Of a stretch of 64,000 nucleotides of DNA, positions 1 through 26,223 are shown piece after piece. The notes beneath the pieces were generated by a model. The model made no database searches. It saw nothing but the letters and a program-made list of their open reading frames with translations, and was not told the origin of the DNA. Within the stretch, counting starts at the first letter, position 1; each line of letters begins with the position of its first letter. This stretch comes from Brachycybe producta. Its lineage: Eukaryota; Arthropoda; Diplopoda; Playtdesmida; Andrognathidae. The stretch spans positions 62,001 through 126,000 of the forward strand of contig JAUPFP010000161.1 in assembly GCA_036925085.1 (NCBI GenBank), read 5' to 3'. The translations under genes and the position numbers were made by a program.

Positions 1-594
1 TGTTAAGGGCTGGTAAACATCAATTACATTTGAAATGGGGTTTCTACACACTGGGCATAAAAAACTTTCCATTTCTAATAACGTTGTTGTACATGCCTTA
101 CAGGCAGCTTGATGCTTACAAGGGTCAAATACAACCCGTGCACCCTTCACTAAACAAATAGTACAATATTTGATAGTGGCCGTTTCTTCATCATCGTAGG
201 GTAGTAGTTTCTCCAGAAGTTCTTCTTTTCGGCTTACAGGTGGATTTCCCATCAGCTGGAGGAGAATTTCACTATCGGTCGTGTCATCTGCAGTTGCAAT
301 TTCATTATTTTTTTTTAAATTTTTTTACGACCAATCTAATTACTTACTGGAGTCATCGAGATAGACAATTGGATGTCTATTAACTGCAGCACTTCTAGTA
401 GAGGCATTCGAGGCAGTTTCAGGCTCCGTTTCAGAATCAGATGCAATGTCTACAAATGGAATACATGAATTATAAGAAGACATAGTTGCATCATGTCCAA
501 CCAAGGTTTGACAATAGACTCGGGAATTATCATGCTCCGAAAAATTAACATTAGGTATGAGAAATAGTGTTAACGGGGACCAGACATGGTACAT
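1..594 (-). CDS. Spliced RING-finger protein, 3' end off the left edge
   Basis: Minus-strand gene in two exons. Exon 1 (594 to 348) is rich in Ser, Glu and Asp. It ends at a GTAAGT donor (347-342), and a 60-nt intron closes at CTGCAG (AG at 289-288). Exon 2 (287 to beyond 1) keeps the frame and encodes a C3HC4 RING with spacing C-x2-C-x11-C-x-H-x3-C-x2-C-x11-C-x2-C, closing with CPVCRNPI. Without splicing the frame stops directly after the donor. RINGs of this type at a C-terminus occur in IAP and MDM2-type ubiquitin ligases, so E3 activity is inferred. No BIR domain is visible. The start is uncertain: ATG 594 or ATG 483. The gene is divergent from the virion cluster and shares its control region. 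It could be a Polinton cargo gene or a neighbouring host gene. Confidence 0.6.
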
Positions 595-628: not shown

Positions 629-637
629 ATGAGTCAT
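629..637. promoter_or_regulatory. AP-1-type palindrome
   Basis: ATGAGTCAT is a perfect bZIP (Jun/Fos or CNC class) consensus palindrome. It lies between the divergent RING gene and the virion cluster. Function is inferred from the consensus only. Confidence 0.4.
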
Positions 638-695: not shown

Positions 696-755
696 AGGCA
701 TGTTTGAACAAGCCTAAACATGTCTGAACATGTTTATTCTTGTTTTGTCAAGGCT
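696..755. promoter_or_regulatory. p53-family response element array
   Basis: Four abutting decamers fit RRRCWWGYYY with no mismatch and no spacer: AGGCATGTTT (696-705), GAACAAGCCT (706-715), AAACATGTCT (716-725) and GAACATGTTT (726-735). Two further CWWG cores follow in the same 10-bp register (CTTG 739-742, CAAG 749-752) with degenerate flanks. The array lies about 50-110 bp upstream of a TATA box and about 100-210 bp upstream of the divergent RING start codons. Two abutting decamers make a full p53 tetramer site, so this is two overlapping-register full sites plus decayed ones. Confidence 0.65.
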
Positions 756-803: not shown

Positions 804-810
804 TATAAGT
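804..810 (+). promoter_or_regulatory. TATA box of the virion gene cluster
   Basis: TATAAGT stands about 50 bp downstream of the p53-like array and about 130 bp upstream of the first start codon. A start site near 830-840 is inferred. It would give a short leader exon ending at the donor at 879/880. Confidence 0.45.
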
Positions 811-879: not shown

Positions 880-937
880 GTATGTTTTTTCTTTTCTCGG
901 TTTGATTCAGCCTTATGAATGAAAAATTAATTTCCAG
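880..937 (+). other. Predicted 58-nt leader intron
   Basis: The donor is AG|GTATGT, followed by a pyrimidine-rich stretch, and the acceptor is TTTCCAG. Splicing joins the leader directly to A-ATG at 939. A second acceptor (TTTTACTCAG, ending 1503) stands in the same place before the next gene, also giving A-ATG. One leader could therefore feed both genes by alternative splicing. Inferred from consensus only. Confidence 0.45.
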
Positions 938-1475
938 AATGCCTATTTTCGGCAATATATCCACCGTTATTGATTGTGATGGATTTCAAATTGGAAGTGA
1001 TTTTTACATTAAGGAATTGGGATACTATACTATCGGTGATCCACACCCGCATAATATGTTTATTCGACTTCCTCAAAATAGACTGTTTACTGAAAAGGAT
1101 GTCAGAACAATGCAATTCGTGACGGCACATATTCATGGTCTTTCTTATAGAAATGATATTGATGATGTCGCATTTTCAACATTTCTGAATGTTTTACGTA
1201 GCTTGTATACGCATGCCTCTGAGAAAAATTCAAATGCCTTATTTGCTTATAAGTTGGGCACTGTGGAAAAAAATGTATTAATGAAATTAAATATTCCTAG
1301 CATAAACCTCGAGAAACTAGGCCTTTGTATGAAATATGAGAATTTACTGACAATCTTTGGCCCTCAAGAAGTTGACTATACGTGTAGTCGTCATAAAAAA
1401 CGGAGAAATGGAATAGCACATTGTGCAAAAAATGAGGCTTATATTTTTGGATTATGGATACAAAAACAGAAATAA
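915..1475 (+). CDS. Polinton-associated protein, DEDD-exonuclease-like (tentative)
   Basis: 186 codons from ATG 915. If the leader intron is spliced, the start is ATG 939 (178 residues). The N-terminus has a short hydrophobic strand and an acidic pair (VIDCDGF, D20 and D22) followed by IKELGYY, which resembles the first motif of an RNase H-fold 3'-5' exonuclease. The C-terminus carries a Cys/His-rich stretch (C, H, HCA, then a Trp). I associate this layout with a recurrent protein of arthropod Polintons, from memory of the family rather than a search. The terminal HxxxxD motif of true DEDDh enzymes is not clear, so activity is uncertain. First gene of the plus-strand cluster, 29 nt before the next ATG. 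Confidence 0.4.
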   Translation: MNEKLISRMPIFGNISTVIDCDGFQIGSDFYIKELGYYTIGDPHPHNMFIRLPQNRLFTEKDVRTMQFVTAHIHGLSYRNDIDDVAFSTFLNVLRSLYTHASEKNSNALFAYKLGTVEKNVLMKLNIPSINLEKLGLCMKYENLLTIFGPQEVDYTCSRHKKRRNGIAHCAKNEAYIFGLWIQKQK

Positions 1476-1917: not shown

Positions 1918-2754
1918 ATGGTAGAGCAAGATGAAATATCGCGCTTAACGATAGAGGAAACGGTGATGCCGCAAAAAAGGAAACCGAGTATAAAATACAT
2001 CGTTATGGGCTGCATAGGGGCTCTTATGCTTATCCTCGAAACAACGAACATCGCTATTTCTACTAAAACGGAAGCACCTGCCAATATACAACTACCGCAA
2101 AATTCCGTATCGATCATGGAAAAAGAGGGTTCCTTCATTCCACTGAAGGCACCGTTTAGGATGATTATTGCCGGTCCCAGCAATTGCGGGAAAACAACCT
2201 TCGTTAAGAAAATTTTGGATCATGCCAGGGGAATGATTAAACCCCCACCGGAAAGAGTAACATGGTACTATTCTCAATATCAAGACTGGTATTCACTTTA
2301 TGGGACTCGAGCGACATTTCTAAAAGGAATGCCCGACATGAAGACTCTAAGATGCGATAGAAACCAGCTTATTGTACTCAACGATCTGTTTCAAGATGTG
2401 AATAGGGGTGTTTCTCAGCTCTTTACGTGTGATTCGCATCATAGAAATATAAGTGTTATATTTATTACTCAAAATATTTTTGACAAGAACCCGTATCAGC
2501 GCACCATTTCTTTGAATGCCTCTTATCTGGTTCTTTTTAAAAACCCTCGTGACAAATCTCAAATTGCTCATTTGTCTCATCAGATGTATCCTGGTAACAC
2601 CAAGTTTATGATCGATGCCTTTAACCAGAGTACTCGTGATCCGTACAGTTACTTGATGATTGATCTCACGCAGAATGCGGATGACAATTCTAGGCTCAGA
2701 ACGAATATATTTCCGGGAGAGTATACCGCTGTATTTTTACCTAAACAACGATGA
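1918..2754 (+). CDS. Genome-packaging ATPase (FtsK/HerA type)
   Basis: 278 residues. A P-loop GPSNCGKTT lies at residues 86-94. A Walker B strand LIVLND ends at Asp156, and a downstream FITQN strand (about residue 183) fits the sensor position of A32-like/FtsK-HerA packaging ATPases found in Polintons and nucleocytoplasmic viruses. Its role would be to pump DNA into a preformed capsid. Before the P-loop there is an extension of about 80 residues with a hydrophobic stretch (about 25-46) flanked by lysines, possibly a membrane anchor. Polinton ATPases usually start nearer the P-loop, so a later start such as Met67 is possible. The stop overlaps the next ATG as ATGA at 2751. Confidence 0.85.
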   Translation: MVEQDEISRLTIEETVMPQKRKPSIKYIVMGCIGALMLILETTNIAISTKTEAPANIQLPQNSVSIMEKEGSFIPLKAPFRMIIAGPSNCGKTTFVKKILDHARGMIKPPPERVTWYYSQYQDWYSLYGTRATFLKGMPDMKTLRCDRNQLIVLNDLFQDVNRGVSQLFTCDSHHRNISVIFITQNIFDKNPYQRTISLNASYLVLFKNPRDKSQIAHLSHQMYPGNTKFMIDAFNQSTRDPYSYLMIDLTQNADDNSRLRTNIFPGEYTAVFLPKQR

Positions 2755-3110: not shown

Positions 3111-3709
3111 TCCTCATCCCCGCTGAATCTTGGGAAGCTCAATATCGAGAAAGACAAGAAAATAAAACGCCCGTTCAACGTACTCTAAGAGACATTGAAA
3201 AGGCCATTCAGCGTATTTTAGAAGAAGAAAACTTGGATAACTACAATAAGGTTTTACTTCTAGGACAATTACAACACCGGTATAAATCCATTTATGAGAA
3301 CAGACCCAAAGAGGTAACGAAAGTGACATTAGAGGACCCTGGTTTTTCGAGTCCCATTGAAGAAAAACAATCATCAGGTATCAGCGATATAGTTAACCAA
3401 CTGCCGAAGACACAACAGAAGAAGGCCGGTCGTCTTCTCAATTTGATAAAAGATGGTAGAGGGCCATTAAGTTGGAATTCATCGCATCAGCTTCTGATAA
3501 ATGGTCAAGTCGTGCCGAATACCAATATTATGGACCTTACTAGAGATCTCGTTATCAGTAAAACTAGATACGACCCCCCAGGATGGGAGCCATTTATCAC
3601 GGAGCTGAAAAAAATGAACGTACCTCGATCTCTCATAGCTAACGACAAGCGATGGGATTATCATCCAGATACCAAAGAATCTAACCGTCCCGTATGGGAA
3701 GAATCATGA
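3095..3709 (+). CDS. Conserved Polinton protein of unknown function
   Basis: 204 residues from ATG 3095, which has a good context (A at -3, G at +4). The frame is open upstream to 3038 but without an ATG. An alternative start at 3107 would give an exact ATGA overlap with the previous stop. Composition is charged and helical in the first 70 residues. The middle part reads as helix (IVNQLPKTQQKKAGRLLNLI), followed by LSWN and a short INGQVVPNTNIMDL motif, a pattern I recall from Polinton proteins located between ATPase and integrase. A structural or assembly role is a guess. The stop overlaps the integrase ATG at 3706. Confidence 0.6.
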   Translation: MAEKMILIPAESWEAQYRERQENKTPVQRTLRDIEKAIQRILEEENLDNYNKVLLLGQLQHRYKSIYENRPKEVTKVTLEDPGFSSPIEEKQSSGISDIVNQLPKTQQKKAGRLLNLIKDGRGPLSWNSSHQLLINGQVVPNTNIMDLTRDLVISKTRYDPPGWEPFITELKKMNVPRSLIANDKRWDYHPDTKESNRPVWEES

Positions 3710-4770
3710 AAAACAAAGAACTCAAAAAAATTTATTACGATCCATCCTCCAGCGGGTCTTTCGGAGGTGTGGACCGCCTTCATGCGGCAACTGGAAAGAA
3801 ATTTACTCGGGGTGAAATTGAAGCCTGGTTACGAACGCAAGATGTCTACACTTTACATAAACCAGTGAGAAGAACATTTACGAGAAATAGAACATTGGTC
3901 AGTAAAATAGACGATGTATGGCAGATGGATCTCGTGGATATGCAGTCTTACAAAAAAGAGAATAAGGGTTACAACTATCTTTTAACTTGTATCGATGTAT
4001 TTTCAAAACATGCTTGGGTTCAACCATTAAAACAAAAAACTGGAAAGGAAATGATCGCTGCTTCAAAAATTATTCTGCGAGATGGAAGGAAGCCGAGAAA
4101 AATTCAATCGGATAGGGGTAAAGAATTCCTGAATAAGAACTTTCAGACCTTTCTCAAAGAAAATGGGATTGGATTTTATACCACTTTTAACGAAGTCAAA
4201 GCTGCCGTTGTCGAACGTTTTAATAGAACTTTGAAATCACGCATGTGGAGGTATTTTACAGCGAAGGGCAATTATCAGTACATTGATAAGTTGAGTCATC
4301 TGGTGAAAGGATACAATGCATCGTATCATAGAAGCATTGGCATGGCTCCGGAGAAAGTCTCATCTACCAATGAAAAAGATGTATTTAAACGATTGTTTCC
4401 ATCTGCCAATAGTAGATTGCCCAAGTTCAAAGTAGGTGATCGTGTTCGTATTTCCAAGACGAAGCTAACTTTCGAAAAAGGTTACTTACCCAATTGGTCG
4501 GACGAAGTTTTCACCATCTCTGCGCATATCGACCGAATACCTTCGGTATACCGTCTCGTGGATATTGATGGAGAACTATTAGAAGGTACGTTTTACGAGG
4601 AAGAACTTCAAAAAATTGACAAGAAAGACAGCGATTTTTGGAGGGTAGAAAAAGTTGTAGCTGAAAAAGGAAAAGGACGGCACCGGCAACTTTTGGTGAA
4701 GTGGAAAGGATACGCTGATAAACACAACAGTTGGATTAAAGCGGGAAATTTGAAACAACTACAAAAATGA
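3706..4770 (+). CDS. Polinton integrase with C-terminal chromodomain
   Basis: 354 residues from ATG 3706, which overlaps the preceding TGA. An in-frame ATG at 3694 would add four residues. The retroviral-type DDE core is present: Asp in WQMDL (codon 3928), Asp in IQSDRGKEF (4111) and Glu in VVERFNRTL (4213), a D-x60-D-x33-E spacing slightly shorter than the usual x35. There is no HHCC finger at the N-terminus, only a helical segment. An SH3-like region with KVGDRVRISK follows. The last 45 residues hold a chromodomain core (LLVKWKGYADKHNSW), as in c-integrases of Polintons, which may steer insertion to marked chromatin. The frame is intact. The 3' end overlaps the next gene as ATGA at 4767. 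Confidence 0.92.
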   Translation: MKNKELKKIYYDPSSSGSFGGVDRLHAATGKKFTRGEIEAWLRTQDVYTLHKPVRRTFTRNRTLVSKIDDVWQMDLVDMQSYKKENKGYNYLLTCIDVFSKHAWVQPLKQKTGKEMIAASKIILRDGRKPRKIQSDRGKEFLNKNFQTFLKENGIGFYTTFNEVKAAVVERFNRTLKSRMWRYFTAKGNYQYIDKLSHLVKGYNASYHRSIGMAPEKVSSTNEKDVFKRLFPSANSRLPKFKVGDRVRISKTKLTFEKGYLPNWSDEVFTISAHIDRIPSVYRLVDIDGELLEGTFYEEELQKIDKKDSDFWRVEKVVAEKGKGRHRQLLVKWKGYADKHNSWIKAGNLKQLQK

Positions 4771-6609: not shown

Positions 6610-7895
6610 ATGAGCGGCTTTCTCGTACATCATGACTCGGGGCCCGGGATGAGTTGTGAATTGGATATTTTTACCGTGCCCGCGACGCAAACGAGTAATC
6701 GGGATGACTGCATTAAGGAATACCATCCCGTGAACAGTATCGAAGACCAAAATACGATAGAGTTCAATATCATGGGAAATGCCGATGAATACATAGATCC
6801 TTCTGATATTTACCTGAATGTGAAGGCAAGAATCTTAAAAGCGGACGGAAAACCATTGGACGCTACTTGCGAAGTCACACCTATAAATGGGTTTTTTCAC
6901 TCACTTTTTAGCGAAATTACGGTTACTCTCGGGCATACGATTATTAGTTCCACTGATCACGATTATGGATATAAAGCTTATTTAACGACCCTTCTAGGCA
7001 GCGAAAACACCGGGAATAAACCTTATTTATCTCTGGAGATGTTCTACAAAGACACCATCGCTGCCTTTAAAGATCGTAAACCATCCACCTCCGATCCGGC
7101 AGATGGATTAGCGCAACGCTTCGAAAGATCAAAAGCGAGTGCTATTATGGATATGTGCGGACGTCTTCACGGAGATATATTTCATCAGGGGCGGCTCTTA
7201 CCTAATATGCTCGATCTCTCCATTAAATTAATTCGTCAAAAAGATGCCTTTTGTTTACTGAAACCAGATACCTCTATGTACGAAAAGTGATACCAAATCC
7301 ATCTATCGTTGAAACGCATATTGAGCAGTCGTTGAAGTCTAATTTTATTTATCCCATCAACCGAATCAAATGCACTTCTTTCAGTGAACCTAGCGGCGGC
7401 CACGATATTAACATCAACATTTGTAATGGCATATTACCGAGTTTCGTTATGATTGGACTCGTTGATAGTGATGCACGAGCTGGAAATTTAAAAAAGAATC
7501 CTTTTCATTTTCATTACAAGGACCTTAGTTTTCTCGAGCTACAGGTAGATGGTACCCAGTTTCCGGGGATACAGTTCAGTCCAAATTTCAGTACGAAAGA
7601 ATACGGTCATCTTTATCAGCAGCTATTTTCTGCGTGCCGCAAGTATTATGGCACAGACGGTGTAGATGTGACGTTCGAGGAATTTAAAAACGGCTATTCT
7701 CTTTATGCCTTCGATCTCACCAATGATCAAAGTGCTCTATCAGGATCCCATTTCAACTTGAGTAAAAACGGATCTTTACGGCTCAATATGAAATTTAAAA
7801 ATCCATTGAACACAACGGTGAATGTCATCGTTTATTCCATCTACCAGTCCATTATCGAAGTGGATCATCATCGCAATGTTATCATAGATTATTAA
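6610..7895 (+). pseudogene. Major capsid protein (double jelly roll), frame broken
   Basis: Two overlapping open frames together cover a Polinton major capsid protein. The first (6610-7290) begins MSGFLVHHDS and contains the N-terminal jelly roll (INGFFHSLFSEITVTLG). The second (open from before 7251 to 7895) starts in frame at about LYVRKV and carries the C-terminal jelly roll (NPFHFHYKDL, VDGTQFPG, YSLYAFDLT, IIEVDHHRNV). The frame changes by one base between 7251 and 7290. Fewer residues separate the FCLL and VRKV motifs than I would expect for the family, so a small deletion with frameshift is more likely than programmed slippage, and no slippery heptamer is visible. A sequencing error or a tiny intron are alternatives. 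Starts 2 nt after the preceding stop. Confidence 0.75.
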
Positions 7896-7896
7896 A

Positions 7897-8367
7897 ATGG
7901 ATTCTAGTCAACTGGAATATTTATTATTTCATCATCCAGCCACGCATTTTGTGTTTGCTGGTGTATTCGCACGGGACCAACTTCCTTTTAGAGTGAATCG
8001 TAAACTTTATATCGTTAATCTGGACGCGCGGTCGGAGCCTGGATCTCACTGGATCACTATTTATTTCAATAATGGAATGGCTGAATATTTTGACAGTTAC
8101 GGAATGAAGCCAATGACGGACGAGATAAATCAGTTCATTACGAGAAACAGTCTCTCCTGGACTTACAATGCACGTAGACTCCAACATTCGAGAACGGCCG
8201 TATGTGGCCAATATTGTATTTTTTATTCTATTTTAAGATGTTCTAATGTATCTATGAAAAGTATCGTTTCTACGTTTCATCGACATAATTATTTGCGAAA
8301 TGATAAAATTGTTCACGCATTTATTAATTATAATCTAAAAAAATATTTACCACTGTATGCTTTTTAA
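7897..8367 (+). CDS. Adenain-like cysteine protease
   Basis: 156 residues. Catalytic candidates in the order of the adenovirus protease family are His51 (GSHWITIYF), Asp66 (YFDSYG), Gln96 and Cys103 (AVCGQYC). The Gln-to-Cys interval of seven equals that of adenain. The family (C5/ULP-like) matures capsid proteins, so it probably acts on the capsid, penton and core precursors encoded just upstream. The ATG lies one base after the capsid stop. Last gene of the plus-strand cluster, followed by a short convergent 3' region. Confidence 0.88.
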   Translation: MDSSQLEYLLFHHPATHFVFAGVFARDQLPFRVNRKLYIVNLDARSEPGSHWITIYFNNGMAEYFDSYGMKPMTDEINQFITRNSLSWTYNARRLQHSRTAVCGQYCIFYSILRCSNVSMKSIVSTFHRHNYLRNDKIVHAFINYNLKKYLPLYAF

Positions 8368-8513: not shown

Positions 8514-8933
8514 TTATTTTCCCGTAGAGCCAAACCCAAGCTCACCACGGGTGCTTGGAGGGAGTTCAACATCGCACTCTGTAAATTCCACATCGGGGTA
8601 TATTTTTTCAAAAATGATTTGCGCAATTCTATCCCCTTTTTTAATAGAAAAATCATAGGTTCCGAAATTTATTAACAGAACATTAATAGCTCCCCTGTAG
8701 CTGGAATCAATGACACCGGCCAAAACATCGATTCCAAAATGAAGCGCGGGGCCCGATCTTGGTGCGATTCTTCCATAGGAATTATACGGTATAGCCATGG
8801 ATAAGTCTGTCGCACAGAGCATTCTATCTCCAGGTTTAATAGTGCAGTTCACCGCAGAATACAGATCATATCCGGCATCACCCATATTCATTTTCTTCGA
8901 GATGACACATGCATCGCTTAATCTCTTAACCAT
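8514..8933 (-). CDS. dut: Trimeric dUTPase
   Basis: 139 residues from ATG 8933; upstream in-frame codons lack an ATG. All five dUTPase motifs are present in order: DAGYDLYS (1), PRSGPA (2), GVIDSSYRGAINVLL (3, with the catalytic Asp and Tyr), KGDRIAQIIF (4) and TRGELGFGSTGK (5, the Gly-rich P-loop-like cap). It would convert dUTP to dUMP and keep uracil out of replicating DNA. It lies 48 nt downstream of the polymerase stop on the same strand, so it looks like the third cistron of the replication module. dUTPase is not one of the core Polinton genes and may have been acquired. Confidence 0.92.
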   Translation of the reverse strand: MVKRLSDACVISKKMNMGDAGYDLYSAVNCTIKPGDRMLCATDLSMAIPYNSYGRIAPRSGPALHFGIDVLAGVIDSSYRGAINVLLINFGTYDFSIKKGDRIAQIIFEKIYPDVEFTECDVELPPSTRGELGFGSTGK

Positions 8934-8981: not shown

Positions 8982-11900
8982 TTAAATTGAAAAATAGCCA
9001 TAAGCGAGGGTAGTAATTCCGTCATTCTCAATATAACGTTTATCATCGAATGCGGTAAGACTGATTTTGTTCACTTCTAGAGTGTAAATATCGTGCATTT
9101 TAGACATGATTTGCCGTTGAATCACCCTATTCGGAATAGACTGATGCAAAGATTCAATGTACATATCATGATTGAAGTGAGATTTAACGATCTGTTTCTT
9201 AATACCTTTAGCTTTACATTTATACTTATGGCTATTTAACAGTATAGAATACATTTTAGATTTTAGGGCCACAAATTCCGAAATAGGTTCACCATTCATT
9301 TCATCTTTAAATTTTCCCATAACTTTTTTGTTTTTAAGAGAGTGCAGAAAGTGACTTTTTGGATAGTCACTCGTATCCAAATGGTATTGGTAACGCTGCA
9401 TGTCATGGTACAAATCTTTCGTTTGAATATGCATAATGAAACTATCCGTATCGGTATACAACAATTTCAATCTATTTCCGGGATAATTTGATTTCAGAAC
9501 ATAATAATAAAATTCATACATGAACAACTTCGATATTTCTAGCACAGTAAAACCCGTATACATTGGTTTGTTAAAATAAATGGACCATTTTTTCATTTTA
9601 AAAACAGTGAGATTCTTATCGATAATGTGAAATGAGTCTAAATTTGCGCGACTGAGTAATTTTAGACACCGTTCTTTTTCATTAACGAGTTCGGCATTCA
9701 TTTTTTTTCTTTGATTTTCCATCGTTTTCCCGAAAACGGCATTGTTCATTAATTTGAAAAAGTCTTTTTCGAAATCATCTTTTGCTAGTTTACGCATGGC
9801 AATGTTAAATTCTGTATAGGGCTTTAACCACTTACCTTGGGTAAAAGAAAGAACACGATGAATTTTGATTAATTTCATCCCCAGGTTTAAGTAGCATTGT
9901 AAATTTCTAACATGAATCACGTAATGTTTTTTATGATAAAGATTTGGTGCGAGTTTTTTCGTCTTGTAGTTTTTGGGTTCTTTTCCTTTTACTTTTTTTA
10001 GAAGGTCTTTAGCATAAGGAGATAGCATATCGAGGTGAATATCGAGCCTTTCTGGACAAAGAGGGTAGTCACTATGATCAAAATGTAAATCAAGGGGATA
10101 ATCGAGATCCACTTCTAATATGTATCCCTCTTTGTCATCTGGATTTATGGAATGGATGTCAAAAGTTTTGATCTCATTTTCATCTAACCAACAAAAATCT
10201 TTCATGGGCATGGGCTCGCACATCGCCGTAGCATACAAGGAATTGTAGTCCCAATAGGCTAAATAAGATTTAGGCTTAGATGGATCGTAATCATTTAGAT
10301 AGGGATTGTTCGCTTTTGCGTATCTGTGGCTGGCAACAGAAACACCTCCGCGAATACCTTTTTCGATAAATAAGTGCATATCATAATCCGTAAGTAATTC
10401 CAACTCAACTTCTGTGTATTTCAAAGCGGCGGACCATGCATACATGGGCAAAGTGAAATAATGCGCGGGATCTAGTCCAAAACTTTTAAAAGAAATAGTT
10501 CGGAAATTTTCGAAAACATCCGCCAAAATGAGACAATCGCTTCTTAAGTAAATATCGTGATAATCGCCTAATGTTTCACAACCGAACGTCTCCCATACCT
10601 TTTTCACGTGCTCGTAATCTTTATCAGAGATCACTTCTTCATTCAGGGTATTGCTGAAACAAGCTTTATCCGGAATGCCTACTGCGTCAAATTTTGAGTG
10701 ACTGTCCAAGTATTCATAAGGAAAATGTCCTTTTTGCGTCATGAGATCAATTTTTGAAGGGTCTTTGAAAAACCATGAAACGCAATTAAATTTCTCTTTA
10801 GAAAGATTTTGAGCGAGGGTTGCGAGTGGAGTGGACAAGAATTGAAAACTATCTAGAAACACGAGATCATCGACGATGAAACTCGTATAGCGCTCAATAT
10901 TTAATGGAATAATGTTAATGGGCTTTTCCGTTTTAATCCTAGATAGGGCTTTAACGATAAAATGCTCATCATACGAACGTAAACAATGAGCGAAACATGG
11001 CAAGTAAGAGCGGTCACGCAAGGTTGCATTACAACTGAAGCACGCTGCACCCCTGTAATTGTTTCCCGGAAGATGGTGGTCATGATCTCTTACTTTGCCC
11101 GTTATAAACTCATTGAACTCCGTATGACAAGCGTAACAGTGTGTGGCTTTCTGGAAATTTTCCTCATCTTCGTTCGTCATGATCATAGGCTCTATTGGGG
11201 CTGATTTCAGCAATGCACTGGCTTTGTCTCTTAACGTCATGACGAGCTCATACGCAGGATCTTGGGACCTTTTACATTCGTGAGCTACAACCTTACCGTG
11301 ATAATCAACGATAACGTAAGAATACGAGCAAGCTTCGTGTTTTTGGATGGTTTTGGTATAGGAGGTACTCGGATTTTGAGTTGGGCCACTGACTTTTTGG
11401 ATGAGACTTTCGAAATCAAAATAAGCTACGTAAGGGCACCGCAAGGCTTTATGAAACTCGTTAAACTTTAAAACACAATCCTCTTTGCTGGGTAACCGAA
11501 TTTTGGCCGTTTTATGCTCTTCACACATGGGACGATGCCTTTCTAAAGCGCTTTCGACTTTAAACCCTTGGCAGCATCGTAAGCAAAAAAATTTTTTGTT
11601 TAAACCATCACGTCCCATTAATCGAGCAATATTTCGAATGAGAAAGTAGTGCCTGTCATGAAGAAGAAGATTTATTTCTCTATTTGAGTTGGAATTGCTT
11701 AACTGAAGAGGAACCACAAATTTATCGTAACCGAAAACGTTAATTTTGAGATTATTCGCAATTTCGAATTTTGAAATTTGGCTTAAACCAACGGGATATT
11801 CAAGCATGGATGTATCCAGAGAACCTTCTAATTTCTTATAGTGGCTCAATCTATTTGGATGGTTGTCTCTCGTGACCGGATGTAAATGAGCTAATATACA

Positions 11901-12581
11901 CCATAAAAAACATTTGGCATCTTTAGATGCGATATTTAAAATAGATTTCTTATTTTTTAATGAACCGGGAAGTTTTCCCGAACATCCCCCTTTATACGGT
12001 CTGTATTTACCAATTTTGATTTCTACATCTTCGATGGAATCGATCACCCAACCCGAACCTCTATTAATGAAAGCTTCTATTGCGCCTAAGATTTGCATTT
12101 CACATTCTCGCAAGTAATGTTTTATTTCTGAATGATGCATAATAAGTTTCATATTACTACAAAAATAAGAATCATTGGTTTCGTAAGTCATTATTGCCTC
12201 ATTGTTTTCATAAATGATTTTTGGCTTCATAAAATGAATGCGTAAACATAATTGAAATTTAAATCTCATTTTATTAGACCATCCCTCCAACAAATTTGTA
12301 ACATCATTATAGACGTGTTGAAAATAGTCCCTTGGATCCTGAATATTATTCCCATTCATGTGTTTTAAGGTAACTAATACACTCCCAAATCCCGTTTTAT
12401 GTACAATAAAAGAATCTGGTAAAAATATTTCGTGAGTGTTATTTAAATGTGCCAACCATTCCGTTTTAGTATTAAATTGTGAATTGCAGAGATTACATTT
12501 TTCTTTGATAGGTCCGATAACATGGGCATTGAGAAAATGCTCCATGGAGTTATCTGGATCCCCACATATGAAACAGCTCAT
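8982..12581 (-). CDS. polB: Protein-primed family B DNA polymerase
   Basis: 1199 residues in one open frame. Two C2H2 fingers open the protein (C3, C6, H15, H20 and C29, C32, H45, H50), and another Cys cluster begins at 333. The exonuclease motif FDFES has Asp389 and Glu391. Residues about 482-517 form an endonuclease-VII-like zinc site (CYAC, DHDHH, CFSCN) often embedded in Polinton polymerases. Polymerase motif A is YWDYNSLY (Asp778), motif B KLMNNAVFGK (943-952), motif C YTDTDS (1044-1047), followed by KSKMYS. It would replicate the element by protein priming at its termini. The ATG overlaps the stop of the upstream PC4-like gene as ATGA. All visible catalytic residues are intact. Confidence 0.95.
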   Translation of the reverse strand: MSCFICGDPDNSMEHFLNAHVIGPIKEKCNLCNSQFNTKTEWLAHLNNTHEIFLPDSFIVHKTGFGSVLVTLKHMNGNNIQDPRDYFQHVYNDVTNLLEGWSNKMRFKFQLCLRIHFMKPKIIYENNEAIMTYETNDSYFCSNMKLIMHHSEIKHYLRECEMQILGAIEAFINRGSGWVIDSIEDVEIKIGKYRPYKGGCSGKLPGSLKNKKSILNIASKDAKCFLWCILAHLHPVTRDNHPNRLSHYKKLEGSLDTSMLEYPVGLSQISKFEIANNLKINVFGYDKFVVPLQLSNSNSNREINLLLHDRHYFLIRNIARLMGRDGLNKKFFCLRCCQGFKVESALERHRPMCEEHKTAKIRLPSKEDCVLKFNEFHKALRCPYVAYFDFESLIQKVSGPTQNPSTSYTKTIQKHEACSYSYVIVDYHGKVVAHECKRSQDPAYELVMTLRDKASALLKSAPIEPMIMTNEDEENFQKATHCYACHTEFNEFITGKVRDHDHHLPGNNYRGAACFSCNATLRDRSYLPCFAHCLRSYDEHFIVKALSRIKTEKPINIIPLNIERYTSFIVDDLVFLDSFQFLSTPLATLAQNLSKEKFNCVSWFFKDPSKIDLMTQKGHFPYEYLDSHSKFDAVGIPDKACFSNTLNEEVISDKDYEHVKKVWETFGCETLGDYHDIYLRSDCLILADVFENFRTISFKSFGLDPAHYFTLPMYAWSAALKYTEVELELLTDYDMHLFIEKGIRGGVSVASHRYAKANNPYLNDYDPSKPKSYLAYWDYNSLYATAMCEPMPMKDFCWLDENEIKTFDIHSINPDDKEGYILEVDLDYPLDLHFDHSDYPLCPERLDIHLDMLSPYAKDLLKKVKGKEPKNYKTKKLAPNLYHKKHYVIHVRNLQCYLNLGMKLIKIHRVLSFTQGKWLKPYTEFNIAMRKLAKDDFEKDFFKLMNNAVFGKTMENQRKKMNAELVNEKERCLKLLSRANLDSFHIIDKNLTVFKMKKWSIYFNKPMYTGFTVLEISKLFMYEFYYYVLKSNYPGNRLKLLYTDTDSFIMHIQTKDLYHDMQRYQYHLDTSDYPKSHFLHSLKNKKVMGKFKDEMNGEPISEFVALKSKMYSILLNSHKYKCKAKGIKKQIVKSHFNHDMYIESLHQSIPNRVIQRQIMSKMHDIYTLEVNKISLTAFDDKRYIENDGITTLAYGYFSI

Positions 12582-13933: not shown

Positions 13934-14811
13934 CCAGAAATGACCACATCATAGTCTAAGAGAGATTGTAATGTGGTGTGGAAAATGTGTATTCTGTAAG
14001 AAAAAATGTAGTTAAAATTAAATATATATATGTATATATTCAGAGTATGAAATAAAATTTCTTACTTTTTATATACAAAATGTTTAATTTATTCTATATA
14101 CAGTCGTAAAAACAAGTTTTTTTATCATCTCAGCAGGTGGTATGAGAAAGTTTTAAACTTCTTTCTCTTTAACGAGAAGGAAAAAAAACTGGGTCAAAGC
14201 TTTTTCTCTCTGATGAAGCATTAAAATGGCTTTAAAACGAGTGGTGTAGAAATGACTCAATGATAGTCTATGGGTAGATTGTAATGGGGTGTGAAAATTG
14301 TGTATTCTATAAGAAAAAATGTAGTTAAAATCTGAATGTATATGTATATATTCAGAGTATGAAATAAAATTTCTTACCTTCTATATATAAAATGTTTTAT
14401 TTATTCTATATACATTCGTGAAAACAAGTTTTTTATTATCTCAGCAGGTGGTTAAAGAAAGTTTCAAACTTCTATCTCTTTAATGAGAAGCAAAAAAACT
14501 GGGTCAAAGTTTTTTCTCTCTGATGAAGCATTAAAATAGCTTTAAAACAAGTGGCGTAGAAATGACTCAATGATAGTCTATGGGAGATTGTATTGGGGTG
14601 TGGAAATTGTGTATTCTATAAGAAAAAATGTAGTTAAAATCTGAATGTATATGTATATATTCAGAGTATGAAATAAAATTTCTTACCTTCTATATATAAA
14701 ATGTTTTATTTATTCTATATACATTCGTGAAAACAAGTTTTTTTATGATCTCAGCAGGTGGTTAAAGAAAGTTTCAAACTTCTTTTTAATGAGAAGCAAA
14801 AAAAACTGGGT
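13934..14811. repeat. 312-bp AT-rich tandem repeat, copies 1 to 3
   Basis: The marker GAAATGACTCAATGATAGTC and its variant recur at 13934, 14246 and 14558, a step of 312 bp. Each unit also repeats a TATATGTATATATTCAGAG stretch, a CTCAGCAGGTGG box and a TTTCTCTCTGATGAAGC box. Copies 2 and 3 are closer to each other than to copy 1. Copy 3 is interrupted by the retrotransposon and resumes at 27922. Confidence 0.75.
14808..14811. repeat. Target-site duplication, left copy
   Basis: GGGT directly before the LTR, repeated at 27922-27925 after the other LTR. The uninterrupted repeat copies read ACTGGGTCAAAG with a single GGGT at this place, so the duplication is confirmed internally. Confidence 0.9.
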
Positions 14812-15727: not shown

Positions 15728-16610
15728 TCAGACTGATTTCTTCGGTGGTGGATTCATCGGAGCCACCATCCACACCGACATCCACCGACGTATCCACCAC
15801 GAACACATCCGGGTGTTTCTCCACCCGAGACCGACATCGAAATCAGTCCCCCTGAGTCTTAACACCTCTTGCTGTCGAAACGCTCCGACGGCAAGTGTGT
15901 CAAGTTGCGGACTCTGACGAAGAGTCCGACTTGTAAGAAGGTCTACGAGGGCGGCCGCGGGATCGGACACGCTACCTCGTAGAGGGTGGGTGACAAATTC
16001 TCCCACCATTCCTTCCAAGTCGCAGCCAAGGAGACGCTGAACGTATGGGGCCGCGAGCTGGGCTACATGTACAAGTCCAGCTCCTGTCCCCACCACGTCG
16101 AGAACAGCGTAGCATCTCCTTACCGGGTTGACGACCAGCAACACCGGATAGTCTGTACTGCCCAATGCCAGCACATAACGCATGGCAAATGACGGTAACG
16201 ACGGCGTCCACGGAACTGGGAGTGGCTCTCCCAGACGATAGTATCCGTGGTATTGGTACCCCTCCATTCCCGGCTGGTCCTGCCACAGACCAAGCCGGTT
16301 ATTCAGAAAGACCTCTCCTTCTGAATACGGAGGCTCCGCACCAAAGCGTCGACCCTCGCCCTCGGGCTCAGGAGACTTGGCTCTTTCTTCCGGTCCTAGG
16401 GCCGCAAAGACCCCATCATCGGGACCCGGAGAGAAGGGTGTCCTTCCTACGGAAGGCACGGGACCACGTTTGGCGGGAACGTTACTTTTCCCCGCCGGGC
16501 TGCCCCCACCGCTAGGTAACGGTGAGCTGACCCGGTGGAGAGTTCCCACCGACCGAACTGATAAGTTCGGTACCCGCCACCACCTTCGGGGAGGATGACG
16601 GTATACCGAG
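15728..16610 (-). CDS. Continuation frame of retrotransposon ORF3
   Basis: An open frame on the element's sense strand, one base out of step with ORF3 and taking over where ORF3 stops (16512). From about 16600 on, its composition looks like protein: SPEPEGEGR, then a compact segment including YPVLLVVNPVRRCYAVLDVV and VHVAQLAAPYVQRLLG. Only this part looks coding; its upstream portion (to 17131) is a shadow of ORF3. It could be the C-terminal half of ORF3, reached through a +1 shift, an unseen intron, or lost by an indel. Near 15850 another frame also looks protein-like, so the true end is unsure. Not recognised as a known family. Confidence 0.4.
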
Positions 16611-18668
16611 AACAACGTCTCGCATTGACCGATCATCCCTCCGCGCCGTCGTGCTATGACGGGTATGGTGCGGTTGGCTCCCGGCCGACACGGCCGCACC
16701 GTGTCGGGACTCCTCCTCCTCGGTCCCGATACTTCCACCACCACCAGTCCCCTGGGACCCACGGGTGGAAGTCTTCGGACCTCCCTTCTTCTCATGATGG
16801 GCCTTCTTGCCCTTCTTTTTCTTCTTTTTCTTTTTCTTCTTATCATGAGAAGAAGGTTCACCGTGCTGCGAGCTGGACGCACCATGGCTCGCAGACTTAC
16901 CGGGCCGGTCAGTCTTAGGAGGGTGGTTAGCCCCCTTCGATTGACCGGACTTACTAGTCGCAGACTTTCTAGCCGAAGCTGTACTAGTCTTTGAACTAGC
17001 TCCCGTAGCCGAACTGACGGTCGAGGACGCTCGTGTCGCCACGAAGCGTCCCTTTCCATCCCGGGGAAGATCTCTCTTCTCCGGGGCAAGGGTCGGCTGA
17101 CCCTTGCCACCAACAGGTTTAACTGCCGCACCCTGGTGAGGTGCCTTGGCAGCTTGTATCACCCCCCTCTGGGCGATACGCTGTTGGCCAGCAGCCGTGG
17201 TGGCACTCGGAATAGGAGTGGCACCAACTCCGACGGGAGGTTCCCCTGTACTGAGCGGATCCCGGGCATCAGCTTCCCGCAGGGGCGGAAACTGAGAGGC
17301 CTGGAGCTCAAACTCTCGACGGTGTGCAGCCTTCTTGTCCCGCTGGACAAGAGCAGCACATCTGGCCGCTTGTGCCTGGTGGTACCGCAAGCGGTCCTCC
17401 TGGCTCCACTTTCCTTTGGGAAAGCCGGCCGGACCTCCACGAGAGGTCTTAGCCTTCTTTCCCACCGGATTACTGGCCAAAGGTGGGGTGAAGGGGCGGG
17501 GACGTTTCTGTCCCTGACCACCACCACCACTGGCGCGAGTGCTCTTCCTCGGAGCGGGAGGAGAAGGCTGATTGGCCTTCTTTTCCGCTCTTCGGTCCCT
17601 CTTGGGAGTTGCAGACTGCCAGCTTGAACAGCCAGCCTCCGCTTCGGTTGGTCCCGAAACCGGAGGCTGACCAACAGGCCAGGCAGCACCAGCAGCTCCC
17701 TCAGGATGAGCTGGCGACACAGGGAGAAGACCCACTGCCGGCGTAAACTTCGCCAAGGCAGCCTTCGTCCTCTCCAACTGTGCCTCCCTCTTCGCCAGGG
17801 CTTTCATCCTGGCGGTGTACCGAGCAGCTCCGGACTTCTTTTTGGATTTAGAACCGTCCTTACGGAACTGCTGGGTAGGGTACTCCCCAACGAAGTAGCG
17901 TTTCCCATCCGACGCCAGGAAACCACCTGACGCCGATTGGTACTGCGCGGCTTCATCCTGCCTTTCCAGACAGGCCGCTTCCGTCTCCCCAACAGGGTCA
18001 ACCGGAATTGGACTGCCCTTCCGGGCTGGAGTACCCTCCTGGGATCCGGTCACAGACCGTTTACCCAGGGAGCCTGATCCTCTCCCTTCAGACTCCGAAG
18101 AGTCCTCTGAAGAGAGGATCCGTTGGCCTCGCCACCGCCTGGAGACGGGCACCACATCATCTTCCATGGTGTCCATCTCCGCCTCCGTGTCGATGACCAG
18201 GGTTCCTCCCAAGGAGGCATCCCTGCTTCCCTCAGCCAGGCTAGCCAATTCTAGCCGGCCTTGGTCCGCCGGAGGATCACACTTCGTCAAAGAGGTAGCT
18301 GCCAAACCGGTGGCCACCTCCTCGACGGGCGTGCTGGCCCGCACCGGCTCACCAACCGCCGGGATCTCCATGGCTTCCAACTTAATGGTCGCCCTCGGAG
18401 AACCCACGGTGGGAGGCGGTGTCAACCGTCCCCAAACAGACCCATAGTATAGAGGGGTCCGAGGGGACGGCTGGGTCACCACAGCGTCATCAGCCAATAG
18501 CAGACCCAAAGGTCCGCCGTCGGCCAAGTCAGCTATGGCCCTACCCAAAGAGTCCGGGGAGCAAGCGGCATCCGACTCCAACAGCTCTGCATCACCCGGA
18601 TGCAAAGAGCTGAGGGAGGAGGAACCGCTGCCACCCCCGCCAGTGTCTTCCTTCTCCGCCGTGGCTAC
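16512..18668 (-). CDS. Retrotransposon ORF3 (env position), unknown function
   Basis: The open frame spans 19463 to 16512 but has no ATG at its upstream end. A strong splice acceptor, pyrimidine-rich and ending TTTCAG at 18669, would start the coding exon at 18668 and give about 718 residues. The protein is low-complexity: an acidic N-terminal part (SSEDSSESEG), basic coiled segments (MKALAKREAQLERTKAALAK), many Pro/Ser/Gly stretches and a run of more than ten lysines near 16820. No signal peptide or membrane segment typical of an envelope is evident. It may be a nucleic-acid-binding accessory protein, expressed like env from a spliced RNA. Continues, out of frame, into the segment ending at 15728. 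Confidence 0.5.
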   Translation of the reverse strand, partial: VATAEKEDTGGGGSGSSSLSSLHPGDAELLESDAACSPDSLGRAIADLADGGPLGLLLADDAVVTQPSPRTPLYYGSVWGRLTPPPTVGSPRATIKLEAMEIPAVGEPVRASTPVEEVATGLAATSLTKCDPPADQGRLELASLAEGSRDASLGGTLVIDTEAEMDTMEDDVVPVSRRWRGQRILSSEDSSESEGRGSGSLGKRSVTGSQEGTPARKGSPIPVDPVGETEAACLERQDEAAQYQSASGGFLASDGKRYFVGEYPTQQFRKDGSKSKKKSGAARYTARMKALAKREAQLERTKAALAKFTPAVGLLPVSPAHPEGAAGAAWPVGQPPVSGPTEAEAGCSSWQSATPKRDRRAEKKANQPSPPAPRKSTRASGGGGQGQKRPRPFTPPLASNPVGKKAKTSRGGPAGFPKGKWSQEDRLRYHQAQAARCAALVQRDKKAAHRREFELQASQFPPLREADARDPLSTGEPPVGVGATPIPSATTAAGQQRIAQRGVIQAAKAPHQGAAVKPVGGKGQPTLAPEKRDLPRDGKGRFVATRASSTVSSATGASSKTSTASARKSATSKSGQSKGANHPPKTDRPGKSASHGASSSQHGEPSSHDKKKKKKKKKKGKKAHHEKKGGPKTSTRGSQGTGGGGSIGTEEEESRHGAAVSAGSQPHHTRHSTTARRDDRSMRDVVLGIPSSSPKVVAGTELISSVGGNSPPGQLTVT

Positions 18669-19459
18669 CTGAAACAGATCAAAAAATACGGTAAAAATTT
18701 GACCTATTACGGTAGGAAACATTTTCCACGGTCCAAAACCGCGAAAAAATGTTTTCCGGCCGGGCAGGCACCGTGGTACACGGCCAAAGCCGTCCCCAAC
18801 GGTAATTGCACGGTCGGAACCGGCCAAAAACACTTTTGGTCGGTCCAAATTCCGTAATTTTACGTTCGGTAACTTGGGCGGTGATTTCCACGGTAAATCA
18901 CCGTAGGAAATCCCGTTTCCACCGTGCATATCCCGTGATCCACGGTAAAAACCGTCCTTCACGGGACCCGCACGGTCGGAATCGGCCAAACACCTGTTTG
19001 GACCGTCCAAATCTGGCACCGACAATTCAGGCTCCTTGGGGAGTGGTTTACACGGACAACTACCGTGCAAAACCACTTTCCGTCCGTTAGAACACCGTGG
19101 ATCACGGTCGAAACCATTTTCCACGGTGGTTTCACGGACAGAACCGTGCAAAAACACCTTTTCACCGTCCAAACTCCGTAGAACTTGGTCCTCACCAAGT
19201 CCCACGGCGTTCGAGCGGCAAAACACCGTGTTCTCCACGGCCCCATCGGCGGTAGCATCACCGTCAAAATTGTTACGGTGATGCCTCCACCAAAACCACG
19301 TGTTCAAGCGGTCAATGACCGCTTGACACACCCAAAAGCAATAAAAGAATACTGCCAAAGGGCAGGAAAAGGAAATTCCCCTTTGGGGACTTACTTCTTG
19401 TCTTGAAGCATCCAATTGTCCTGAGTTTTTGCCTTTTCGTCGGTGAAATATACGTTTTT
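18669..19459 (-). repeat. ACGGT/ACCGT-rich segment between pol and ORF3
   Basis: About 790 bp densely filled with ACGGT and its complement ACCGT in short inverted pairs such as CACGGTAAATCACCGTA. The same motif fills the gag leader. The segment is open in the ORF3 frame, but its translation is repetitive, and it ends at a splice acceptor, so it is more likely intron or untranslated sequence. Confidence 0.5.
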
Positions 19460-22400
19460 TCACAAAAATAGCGGCAAACGTCCGTCTTTTTTTAATTTAA
19501 CTACAAGATGGCGTTTAGTCGCTAATTTCACCAACGGAATGGCTAACAGCGGCGGCTTGGCGGCTGAAACATTATTAGCCGCCTCCATTGCTGTTACCAT
19601 AGAGATTCCACCGTCGTCTGCCACAATAGGAGCAGATACACGGCCTGAATCTCTACGGAAAGACTCAGGAGAGAGATCTTTAAGGGAAATTACTACTGCA
19701 GACTCCTCTTCGAGTTTGCAGTTGGGAATTGTGGATTTCTCCACCCAGCTCCCCCTGAACAACCGCCATCTGTCCGTGACAGACAGGCGGCGCCCAGTCC
19801 AGGGGTCACTGCGCTCCCAATCCTTATTTCCCCAATTCAGGTCATCATCCCACAACAGAGAATGACCTGCTCTCTCCCACCAGGACAGGGACTTCCAAAG
19901 TCCCTGCACCACCCTGGTGCCCATTGGAGCTCCAGAGGAAGCTTGCATAACCTCAAAGGCCCTGGGTTTCCTCGGACGGAGGTAATACCGGGGCCGAGGT
20001 GCTTCCTCTGCCTCAGAGTCAGTTGACTCCACCACCAAGCTAGGCTGGCCAGAAGGTCCTGGAGAGACATCATCCCTCCTCTCACTTCCAGCTGACCCAG
20101 ACTCAGCGTCACTGGACCCTTCGGAGTTCGATGAGGTTTCAGAGCCACCTAGGCCATCTTCCTCACGAACCCCACATGTGGGAATGTACGGCTTCAAGTT
20201 ATCCACATGAAACCGGTCCCGCACCTTCCGACCATACCCATCTACGAATTCTATCTCGTAGACCAGGTCGGAAACCTGCCGGACCACCGTACCCAGTTCA
20301 GCCTTGTAAGCGAAATTCCACTTCTTGGCTTGACCGAGCTTCCCAGCCATATCCCTTATCCAGACCTTATTACCAGGCTGGTATCGGGGTGGCTCCACCC
20401 GGCCGGCGTCATACCGACTCTTCTGTCTTCTTTGAGCGGCCGCCAAATTTTGACGAGCACGCTCTTCCACGGCTTGCTGGTCGGGCAAGACGCGGACCGG
20501 ACCGTTAGGGAGGAGATTGTCAATCCCCAACCTAGGCTCACGACCAAACAACAATTGGTACGGAGACACTTCCGTGCTCTCCTGCACCGCAGTGTTGTAG
20601 GCCCACACGGCGGGCCGCAATTTCTCCCACCAATCACGTTGGTCCTTGAGGGGATCAAGGTAACGCTTGATGGTTTCCATCACGGTCTTGTTCGTACGCT
20701 CCGTAAGCCCATTAGCTTGCGGATGGTACGCCGTCGTGAAGTGCTGCGCTATATTATAGCGCTCCCGGAACTTTCGCAAAATCCTGCTACAGAACTGGGA
20801 TCCACGATCCGAGATGAGAGTAGTCGGTGTGCCATACACCGACAAGATCTCATCTTTCAGAAACTTGACAACACAAGCGGCCGTAGCCCTTCGTACTGCC
20901 TTTGCCACGCCGTACCGGGTGAAGTAGTCCACCATAATCAATACATATGTGACTCCACCCACGGACGCGGGAAAAGGCCCAACGAAGTCCATTCCCCAGG
21001 CATGAACCGGGTACTCAGGAACTATGGGTTGCAAGAATCCTTGAGCTCTTGCGAACTGTCGTACTCTCTGACACACTAAGCATGACTTAACATACTCCAC
21101 CGTGTCACGTTTCATACCTAACCAGTAGAAACGAGTACGCATACGTTGGTAGGTCTTGTACACTCCGAAGTGACCAGCTTCGGAGCTATCGTGCAACTTC
21201 CGCAAGCAGAAGGCTTGACACGACCTCGGCACAACCAACACAGTTCTAGTGCGATCCTGAATGGATTTGATGGCATACAACAACTTGTCTGCCACCACGA
21301 ACTTGAACCTTAAGTCCGAGTCGGGGTCGGTGGAGAGCTCACGCTTCACCTTGGAGCACCAACTGTCGTTGGCCTGCTCCATTACCCAATCCACCTCAGA
21401 CCGGATCCGGTAAATCACCTCACCCACGTCGGCTTCGACGTGTTCAGGCAAAGAAGGATCAACAACTTCCTTCACCGGATACCGACTCAAACAGTCAGCA
21501 TCCTCGTGAAGTTTCCCCTTCTTGAACTGAATCTTATACCGGTACTCCTGCAACTGCATTTGCCAACGCCCCAACCTGCCTTGCAGGTTTTTGGCAGTCT
21601 GCAAATGACAGAGCGCATGGTGATCTGTTACGATCCCAAAGTCCCGGTTAAAGATGTAAGGTCGGAATTTACCCACGGCAAACATGATCGCCAAGCATTC
21701 CTGCTCGGTGACACTATACCGTGTTTCCGGTCCCTTCATGAGACGGCTAGCGTAGGCCAGAACCCGAGGAGCCTTGTCCTCAGGTAACTTCTGGTATACT
21801 ACGACACCTAGACCGTACCCACTAGCATCGGTGTGTATTAACACCTCACCACGTGGATCATACATGGTGAGCACCGGTGCTTCGGTTAAAAATGCCTTTA
21901 ACCGTTCGAAAGCTAGACCACACTGTTCCGACCAGTCAAAGGACGCATCCTTCCTGGTCAGATCGTGCAGAGGTCTTGCGATCTTGGCAAAGTCCTTGAT
22001 GAACCTACGGTAGTAGCCGGTCAGTCCAAGAAAACTTCGGACGGCGGTCACCGTTGTAGGGACATCGAACTCCTCGACTGCTCTTACGAGACCCGGGTCC
22101 GGAGCAACTCCCTCGGCACTAACAATGTGACCGAGATATTTGACCTTGTCAAACCCGAAGAAACATTTCTTCGGCTGGAGTTTCAGCTCCGCCCCTCGTA
22201 ACAGTCTCAGGACAGTACTCAAGCGTTCGAGAAACTGCTCAAAGGTGCTCCCAAAGACGATAATATCGTCTAGGTACACCAAGCAGCTCTCCCACTTGTG
22301 TCCCGCCAACAAGAGGTCTAACGCTCTTTGCATAGTGGCAGGAGCATTACAGAGTCCGAAAGGCATTTTTCGGAACTCAAACAGACCTTGAGAGCAAATG

Positions 22401-24325: not shown

Positions 24326-24342
24326 TACCGGTCGACTGCAGC

Positions 24343-26163: not shown

Positions 26164-26223
26164 CGGGAAACCAGGGTCTTGGCCGATTTCGTCCGTGCGA
26201 ACACGGGCAAAACTGGCCACCAC

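Follow-up and report, generated by a model that had tools for sequence, protein, structure and literature searches.

A putative host p53-family binding site in the promoter of a Polinton-like element of the millipede Brachycybe producta

A stretch of 64,000 nucleotides from the genome of the millipede Brachycybe producta (GenBank assembly GCA_036925085.1, contig JAUPFP010000161.1, positions 62,001 to 126,000; the whole stretch is called the window hereafter and numbered from its first letter) holds an element that is classified by its predicted gene set as Polinton/adintovirus-like, many copies of which are found in the 295 Mb host genome. Upstream of the first plus-strand gene of this element lies an array of abutting decamers, which is probably a binding site for the host p53-family protein in the promoter of that gene. 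This reading is well supported at the level of sequence, namely by the form of the array, its retention in related promoters and the presence of a p53-family gene in the host, and it suggests that the element may respond to the stress alarm of its host.

The decamer array and its retention in related promoters

A p53 response element consists of two RRRCWWGYYY decamers, abutting or separated by a short spacer, and two abutting decamers are bound by p53 as a tetramer. Positions 696-735 read AGGCATGTTT GAACAAGCCT AAACATGTCT GAACATGTTT, that is, four such decamers without mismatch or spacer, followed by two degenerate units, ATTCTTGTTT (736-745) and TGTCAAGGCT (746-755), in which the CWWG core stays in 10-bp phase, all of which a preliminary description of this DNA had stated and direct reading bore out. 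Its further assertion that the run is not due to chance stands with a reservation. In the 28.1 kb of the window outside satellite DNA, 11 perfect decamers were observed against 6.7 expected from base composition, so that single decamers are nothing unusual and the abutting run alone stands out; four in a row would be expected about 1e-10 times if decamers occurred independently, an assumption too strict given local duplication. Such duplication (Tandem Repeats Finder gives a score of 42 to a weak 10-bp repeat at 699-733) and decamer repeats in non-viral host DNA weaken the argument from chance. The perfect 20-mer in the window's promoter (-300 to -60) was reached by 0 of 2000 dinucleotide shuffles.

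A search of the genome with the first-gene protein returned at least 152 matches with an E of 1e-5 or lower, some of them fragments of a single copy. Seventy were read, 30 fetched by the search and 40 chosen as mostly more complete, which covers clade A only partly. Clades were delimited without a tree, from the promoters and from the identity of each first-gene protein to that of the window, and comprise among the loci read 49 of clade A (64% identity or more), ten of clade B (53%), three of clade C (54-55%), two of clade D (48%) and five of clade E (37-49%); L071, with a truncated start, was excluded from these counts. All 49 clade A loci possess, between -300 and -160, a 20-mer of p53 type that deviates in one position at most (perfect in 38), and an unrestricted scan of clade A loci from -1500 to +60 led to the same array. 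The inner pair of decamers was found in phase in 49/49 (37 perfect, seven with one and five with two mismatches) by a search that fixed CAAG and C..G in the range -240 to -170, those letters and the range thus being constrained by construction. Twelve close relatives (L012-L023) display a core mismatch in both outer decamers next to a perfect inner pair, probably as one inherited state, and the outer decamers may well represent a second p53 site that is tolerant of decay. Apparently whole units of the array can be gained or lost, since promoters of the L044 type are without one 10-bp unit relative to L005.

At 97% identity the 49 promoters fall into 23 groups, the largest with 22 members, and in an alignment of 23 representatives the array lines up at a single place. 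Mean conservation per 10 bp in this alignment amounts to 0.63-0.88 over 700-749 and 0.54-0.58 over 680-699. By decamer position over 696-755 it is highest for G7 (0.89), C4 (0.85) and R2 (0.83) and lowest for position 1 (0.54), one promoter group being shifted by a unit in the alignment, which lowers the first columns.

In three of the four distant clades (48-55% protein identity) a weaker candidate 20-mer is present at the promoter. It was scored with a cost of 3 for a mismatch at C4 or G7 and of 1 for any other, and 17 of the 70 loci were tested against 2000 shuffles. The best 20-mers were AAACAAGTTAAGACCTGCTA in clade B (p 0.006 in L050, 0.0075 in L054), GAACAAGTTTAGACATGAAA in clade C (p 0.0095 in L060 and, with one mismatch more, 0.0195 in L062) and GAACATGTTTTAACATGTAC in clade D (p 0.0005 in L063). 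When the columns of the motif were shuffled, permutations identical to it being omitted, one of 3000 shuffled motifs equalled the p53 motif for L054, L060 and L063 together, the first-gene proteins of which share 47-61% mutual identity; the result was the same with L065 added and over -450 to 0. For L045, L037 and L005 of clade A four of 3000 did so, and the reversed motif scored worse in every one of these comparisons. A blastn comparison of six promoters gave six matches between different clades with an E of 1 or lower, of which five coincide with the site (the best, between L054 and L060, at 0.011); the sixth, L063 with L065, falls outside it.

The position of the decamers upstream of a TATA box, also proposed before, was confirmed, 68 bp separating the fourth decamer from the TATA-like box at 804-809. 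Among 22 loci in which this gap was measured, the best 20-mer lies 67-88 bp from the TATA box in 15 of the 16 from clade A, the remaining one (L073) being without a recognised TATA; the distance is 41 bp in L054 and 10-11 bp in L060 and L063, where the value for L063 depends on an AT-rich stretch that is perhaps not its TATA box. The AG/AATG junction of the predicted 5'-UTR intron recurs in L054, L060 and L063. A TGASTCA motif, which we take to be of AP-1 type, is present in 37/49 clade A promoters. The array was moreover described as lying between divergent genes, which holds in the window, where the RING open reading frame (ORF) is on the minus and the first gene on the plus strand, but not in every relative: a RING pattern search of 1500 bp upstream found none in L044, L045, L048, L072, L054 and L060, all of which display a Bcl-2 BH2-type motif upstream on the same strand as the first gene (ORFs were listed for this comparison in L044, L045, L048, L054 and L060).

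The host p53-family gene and the weight of the evidence

One host gene on C133 matches PF00870 across three exons. Its joined DNA-binding domain scores 202 bits, with 7pc6 and p63/p73 as the closest relatives, and is followed by a tetramerisation motif (PF07710, 28.6 bits against a cut-off of 20.7). By eye, the equivalents of the DNA-contacting human residues K120, S241, R248, R273, C277 and R280 appear conserved. The p53 element of the fly reaper gene may share CATGTTTGAACAAG with 699-712; the string of this element did not occur in the papers listed by a literature search, and the likeness serves as a lead only.

Several observations weigh against a p53-family site. Although the motif was preset, the promoters were viewed before the test region and weights were chosen. 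Within clade A all four decamers are perfect in only 10/49 loci, L007 and L011 carry mismatches within the inner pair, and conservation of the array equals that of the core promoter without exceeding it (in the alignment of 23 groups the TATA stretch reaches 0.85, 760-789 reaches 0.82-0.86 and 840-849 reaches 0.95). The sites of clades B to D differ from the motif by two to three mismatches, that of L062 by four, and in all five clade E loci there is at best a half-site, AGACATGTGT or AGACATGTTT, just before the TATA box (p 0.14-0.36). In ungapped comparison with L005 the site is the best match for L060 and L063, albeit a weak one that shuffles equalled in 29/200 and 4/200 cases, respectively, and for L050, L065 and L067 a different segment is best. 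Five further loci that bear an ATPase but for which no first-gene match was listed were read in addition: L085 (42%), L086 and L087 (both 41%), L088 (90%) and L089 (71%). No good 20-mer was found near the gene in L086-L089 (best cost 4 in L087, 6-7 in the others), and L085 holds two perfect 20-mers inside a tandem satellite; with no site tied to a gene, the five were rejected as site-bearing relatives. The preliminary description had named related intact copies lacking the decamers as evidence that would speak against its idea; in this respect the 20-mer persists throughout clade A, while the four-decamer form is confined to the minority given above and clade E as well as L086-L089 are without a site. 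Its attribution to the p53 family fits clade A, where a 20-mer of this type with no more than one mismatch is universal among the loci read, more loosely three of the distant clades, and the gene complement of the host, but not clade E.

The strongest competing explanation takes the array for a minisatellite of decamers that arose locally, as others occur in this host, without regulatory role, its resemblance to p53 sites following merely from a CATG unit that is palindromic. Non-viral host DNA indeed holds long, fuzzy CATG arrays of 10-bp period, in L001 and L002 (in introns of genes that by eye are neprilysin-like and PC2-like, respectively), L003 and L076, and the viral array may derive from such repeats, given that the host makes them. 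Genome-wide, 307 occurrences of the 20-mer pattern were counted and 19 of a reversed control, an excess that was rejected as stand-alone evidence because it stems partly from host decamer arrays and satellite. Among the matches listed (50 forward places, all on contig C1), which represent 26 loci, 12 have a listed first-gene match no more than 1.5 kb away and 14 do not, another point for the minisatellite; seven stretches were read among these 14, namely the four arrays just named, L077 with a single isolated site, and L078 and L079 with a satellite. The unit of this satellite measures roughly 105-120 bp, and the perfect p53-type 20-mer AAACTTGTTCAAACTTGTTT is contained in some units. It is also present at L085:3329-3816, where it directly precedes a Polinton ATPase. 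The viral array, however, is short, has mixed CATG, CAAG and CTTG cores and occupies one aligned place in the 23 representative clade A promoters, and a related pair is present in clades of 48-55% protein identity; its mixed cores, fixed place and presence in distant clades suggest that it was retained by selection, whatever its origin, and a mere minisatellite is rather unlikely.

It is also conceivable, with a slightly smaller probability, that host p53 binds the site and represses the element, which would make it a control point of the host instead of a viral sensor. Retention across clades of the element would be better explained by a benefit to the element than by a brake imposed by the host, and the site lies within about 100 bp upstream of the TATA box, a place usual for activation. 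The sign of regulation could nevertheless be either, since negative and positive p53 sites are described for transposons in a review (PMC5031199). Least probable of the three is the use of the array by another factor with half-sites at 10-bp spacing, a host protein of Grainyhead/CP2 type or a regulator encoded by the element. CNNG cores at this spacing would be compatible with CP2-type sites too, but CATG and CTTG cores with RRR and YYY flanks fit p53 better, C4 and G7 being the best-kept positions, and no DNA-binding regulator was recognised in the subset of the element's ORFs that was scanned. A p53-family site thus stays the preferred reading of the array.

Genes and surroundings of the element

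The features of the promoter and the element are compiled in Table 1. On the plus strand the first gene is accompanied by genes for an ATPase of A32 type, for an integrase (rve) that includes a chromodomain and, with a weak match, for a protease resembling adenain; a dUTPase and a probable type B DNA polymerase (PolB) are encoded on the minus strand.

Table 1. Promoter features and predicted genes of the element in the window.
Feature	Position	Strand	Basis
TGAGTCA, presumably AP-1-type	630..636	.	sequence reading
Four perfect, abutting p53-type decamers	696..735	.	direct reading
Inner pair GAACAAGCCT AAACATGTCT, most widely kept 20-mer	706..725	.	clade A comparison
Two degenerate in-phase units with CWWG core	736..755	.	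direct reading
TATA-like box of first plus-strand gene	804..809	+	sequence reading
Predicted 5'-UTR intron, GTATGT...CAG, ending directly before ATG at 939	880..937	+	by eye
First gene, without known domain (ORF listed at 915-1475)	939..1475	+	ORF list, domain scan
RING (C3HC4) protein gene with two predicted exons, 348-594 and from 287 past the window start	1..594	-	exons by eye
Packaging ATPase, A32-like	1918..2754	+	PF04665, 23.1 bits vs cut-off 22.8
Retrovirus-type integrase with chromodomain	3694..4770	+	PF00665 (57.3 bits) and PF00385
Adenain-like cysteine protease, weak match	7897..8367	+	PF00770, 16.3 bits, under cut-off; 6lj9 S273R, E 8e-4
dUTPase	8514..8933	-	PF00692, 116 bits
Large ORF, probably a type B DNA polymerase, with endonuclease VII-like stretch	8982..12581	-	motifs by eye

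Two hallmarks of Polintons and adintoviruses were found, a retrovirus-type integrase and an A32-like packaging ATPase, the latter barely above the cut-off of its profile. A search with the ATPase returned 961 proteins with an E of 1e-3 or lower, and in IMG/VR no relatives were found with the ATPase, the ATPase alignment or the integrase. The protein of the first gene gave no match in a protein search at the threshold used. In the 1199-aa ORF at 8982-12581 PolB-like motifs were recognised by eye; it is without a Pfam PolB match, and profile searches returned only weak endonuclease VII matches. Capsid candidates at 6610-7895 had no profile match, hence a double jelly-roll capsid was not confirmed by profile.

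Just beyond the window (C161:61319-61795) the element includes a 158-aa Bcl-2-like ORF with a hydrophobic C-terminal tail, which fits the idea of the preliminary description. An ORF at the equivalent place in L050 matches PF00452 with 42.5 bits (cut-off 31.4), while the match stays under the cut-off in the window's element (21.3), L044, L060 and L073. A profile of eight such ORFs matches Bok and Bcl-2 structures (best E 1.6e-4), and a protein search with the Bcl-2-like ORF gave no match at the threshold used. Two tandem ORFs in L063:327-1301 align with the Bcl-2-like ORFs without a PF00452 match, and in clade E (L065, L067) a PC4-type coactivator ORF (PF02229, 38.5 and 39.2 bits) takes the place of the Bcl-2-like ORF before the first gene. 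A p53 site driving the Bcl-2-like gene was considered and rejected, the best 20-mer having a cost of 4-8 in ten upstream regions (lowest in L061); one perfect half-site lies 144 bp upstream of this gene in the window's element.

For the RING gene, the ORF at 1-252 matches PF13920 (46.2 bits against a cut-off of 27). Proteins of Mdm2 type combine a C2H2C4 RING with a p53-binding domain. An Mdm2-like identity was rejected, the RING being of C3HC4 type, and no p53-binding domain was found in the two ORFs scanned for this gene.

The similarity of the element's ends was judged by eye: a 309-bp unit repeated 2.8 times at 13936-14811, in the right part of the element, resembles its left end. To the right of the Polinton genes a Ty3/gypsy-type retrotransposon with gag, reverse transcriptase, RNase H and integrase extends over 15728-26223 and is probably nested in the Polinton. 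A 14-bp satellite, TGAACGTTTAAGGT, occupies about 36 kb at 28117-64000 and also L075 1-1395; since it is present to the left of the element too, the Polinton seems to lie inside the satellite array.

Known systems and a possible induction by host p53

With adintoviruses and Polintons the window's element shares the ATPase and rve integrase and, less certainly, an adenain-like protease and a probable PolB. Sites for p53 in Polinton or adintovirus promoters were not indicated in the open-licence literature, as judged mostly by titles and the beginnings of abstracts; the results listed for p53 sites in proviral promoters included nothing on Polintons, and the available part of a study that names adintoviruses mentions p53 once, for another virus group (PMC11071296). 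Mobile elements with p53 sites in their regulatory part are likewise known from primates (LINE-1, THE1-MaLR and ERV LTRs), and in the accessible text of the review the sites of defective LINE-1 and HERV-I are negative, whereas one LINE-1 site can raise transcription (PMC5031199). As far as this text goes, these systems are human or primate and mostly retroelements, whereas here a virus-like DNA element of another animal is concerned, in which the site occurs across diverged clades and adjoins Bcl-2-like and RING ORFs. Many perfect half-sites clustered in a fuzzy tandem repeat, as in the millipede, are described from mouse Rbl2, Ncoa1 and Klhl26, with 6/7 perfect half-sites in Rbl2; the mouse repeats are, in the portion available, poorly conserved, in contrast to the Polinton site, which is kept across element clades (PMC3386156). 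The giant gypsy elements named Burro of planarians resemble the window's element as mobile elements with a BCL2-like motif, and possess domains of ubiquitination and apoptosis type; they differ in being LTR retrotransposons, and the accessible part of the source mentions no p53 site (PMC6431247).

Following this reading of the decamers, DNA damage or the element's own replication would activate host p53, whose tetramer would bind the inner pair at 706-725 and raise transcription of the first gene, in the window's subclade perhaps that of the divergent RING gene too. The Bcl-2-like protein encoded by the element might then delay the cell death caused by p53, to the benefit of the element in damaged cells. 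Such an account of induction and exit, which the preliminary description had sketched, is plausible. The lambda prophage offers an analogy only, where the SOS response, a damage signal of the host, switches the integrated virus on through loss of the repressor; in the Polinton an activating host factor would instead bind directly. That host p53 serves as the switch by which a DNA virus integrated in animal genomes is induced in this prophage-like manner, with damage activating p53, p53 the first gene and a viral Bcl-2-like protein blocking death, is a possibility that we advance tentatively and with more doubt than the binding site itself.

To our knowledge, the trigger that wakes integrated Polintons in animals is an open question, to which a conserved p53-type promoter element together with a p53-family gene in the host offers a directly testable answer. 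If true, this answer would connect an old class of animal DNA viruses with tumour-suppressor biology and would give a reason for the apoptosis-related genes in Polintons.
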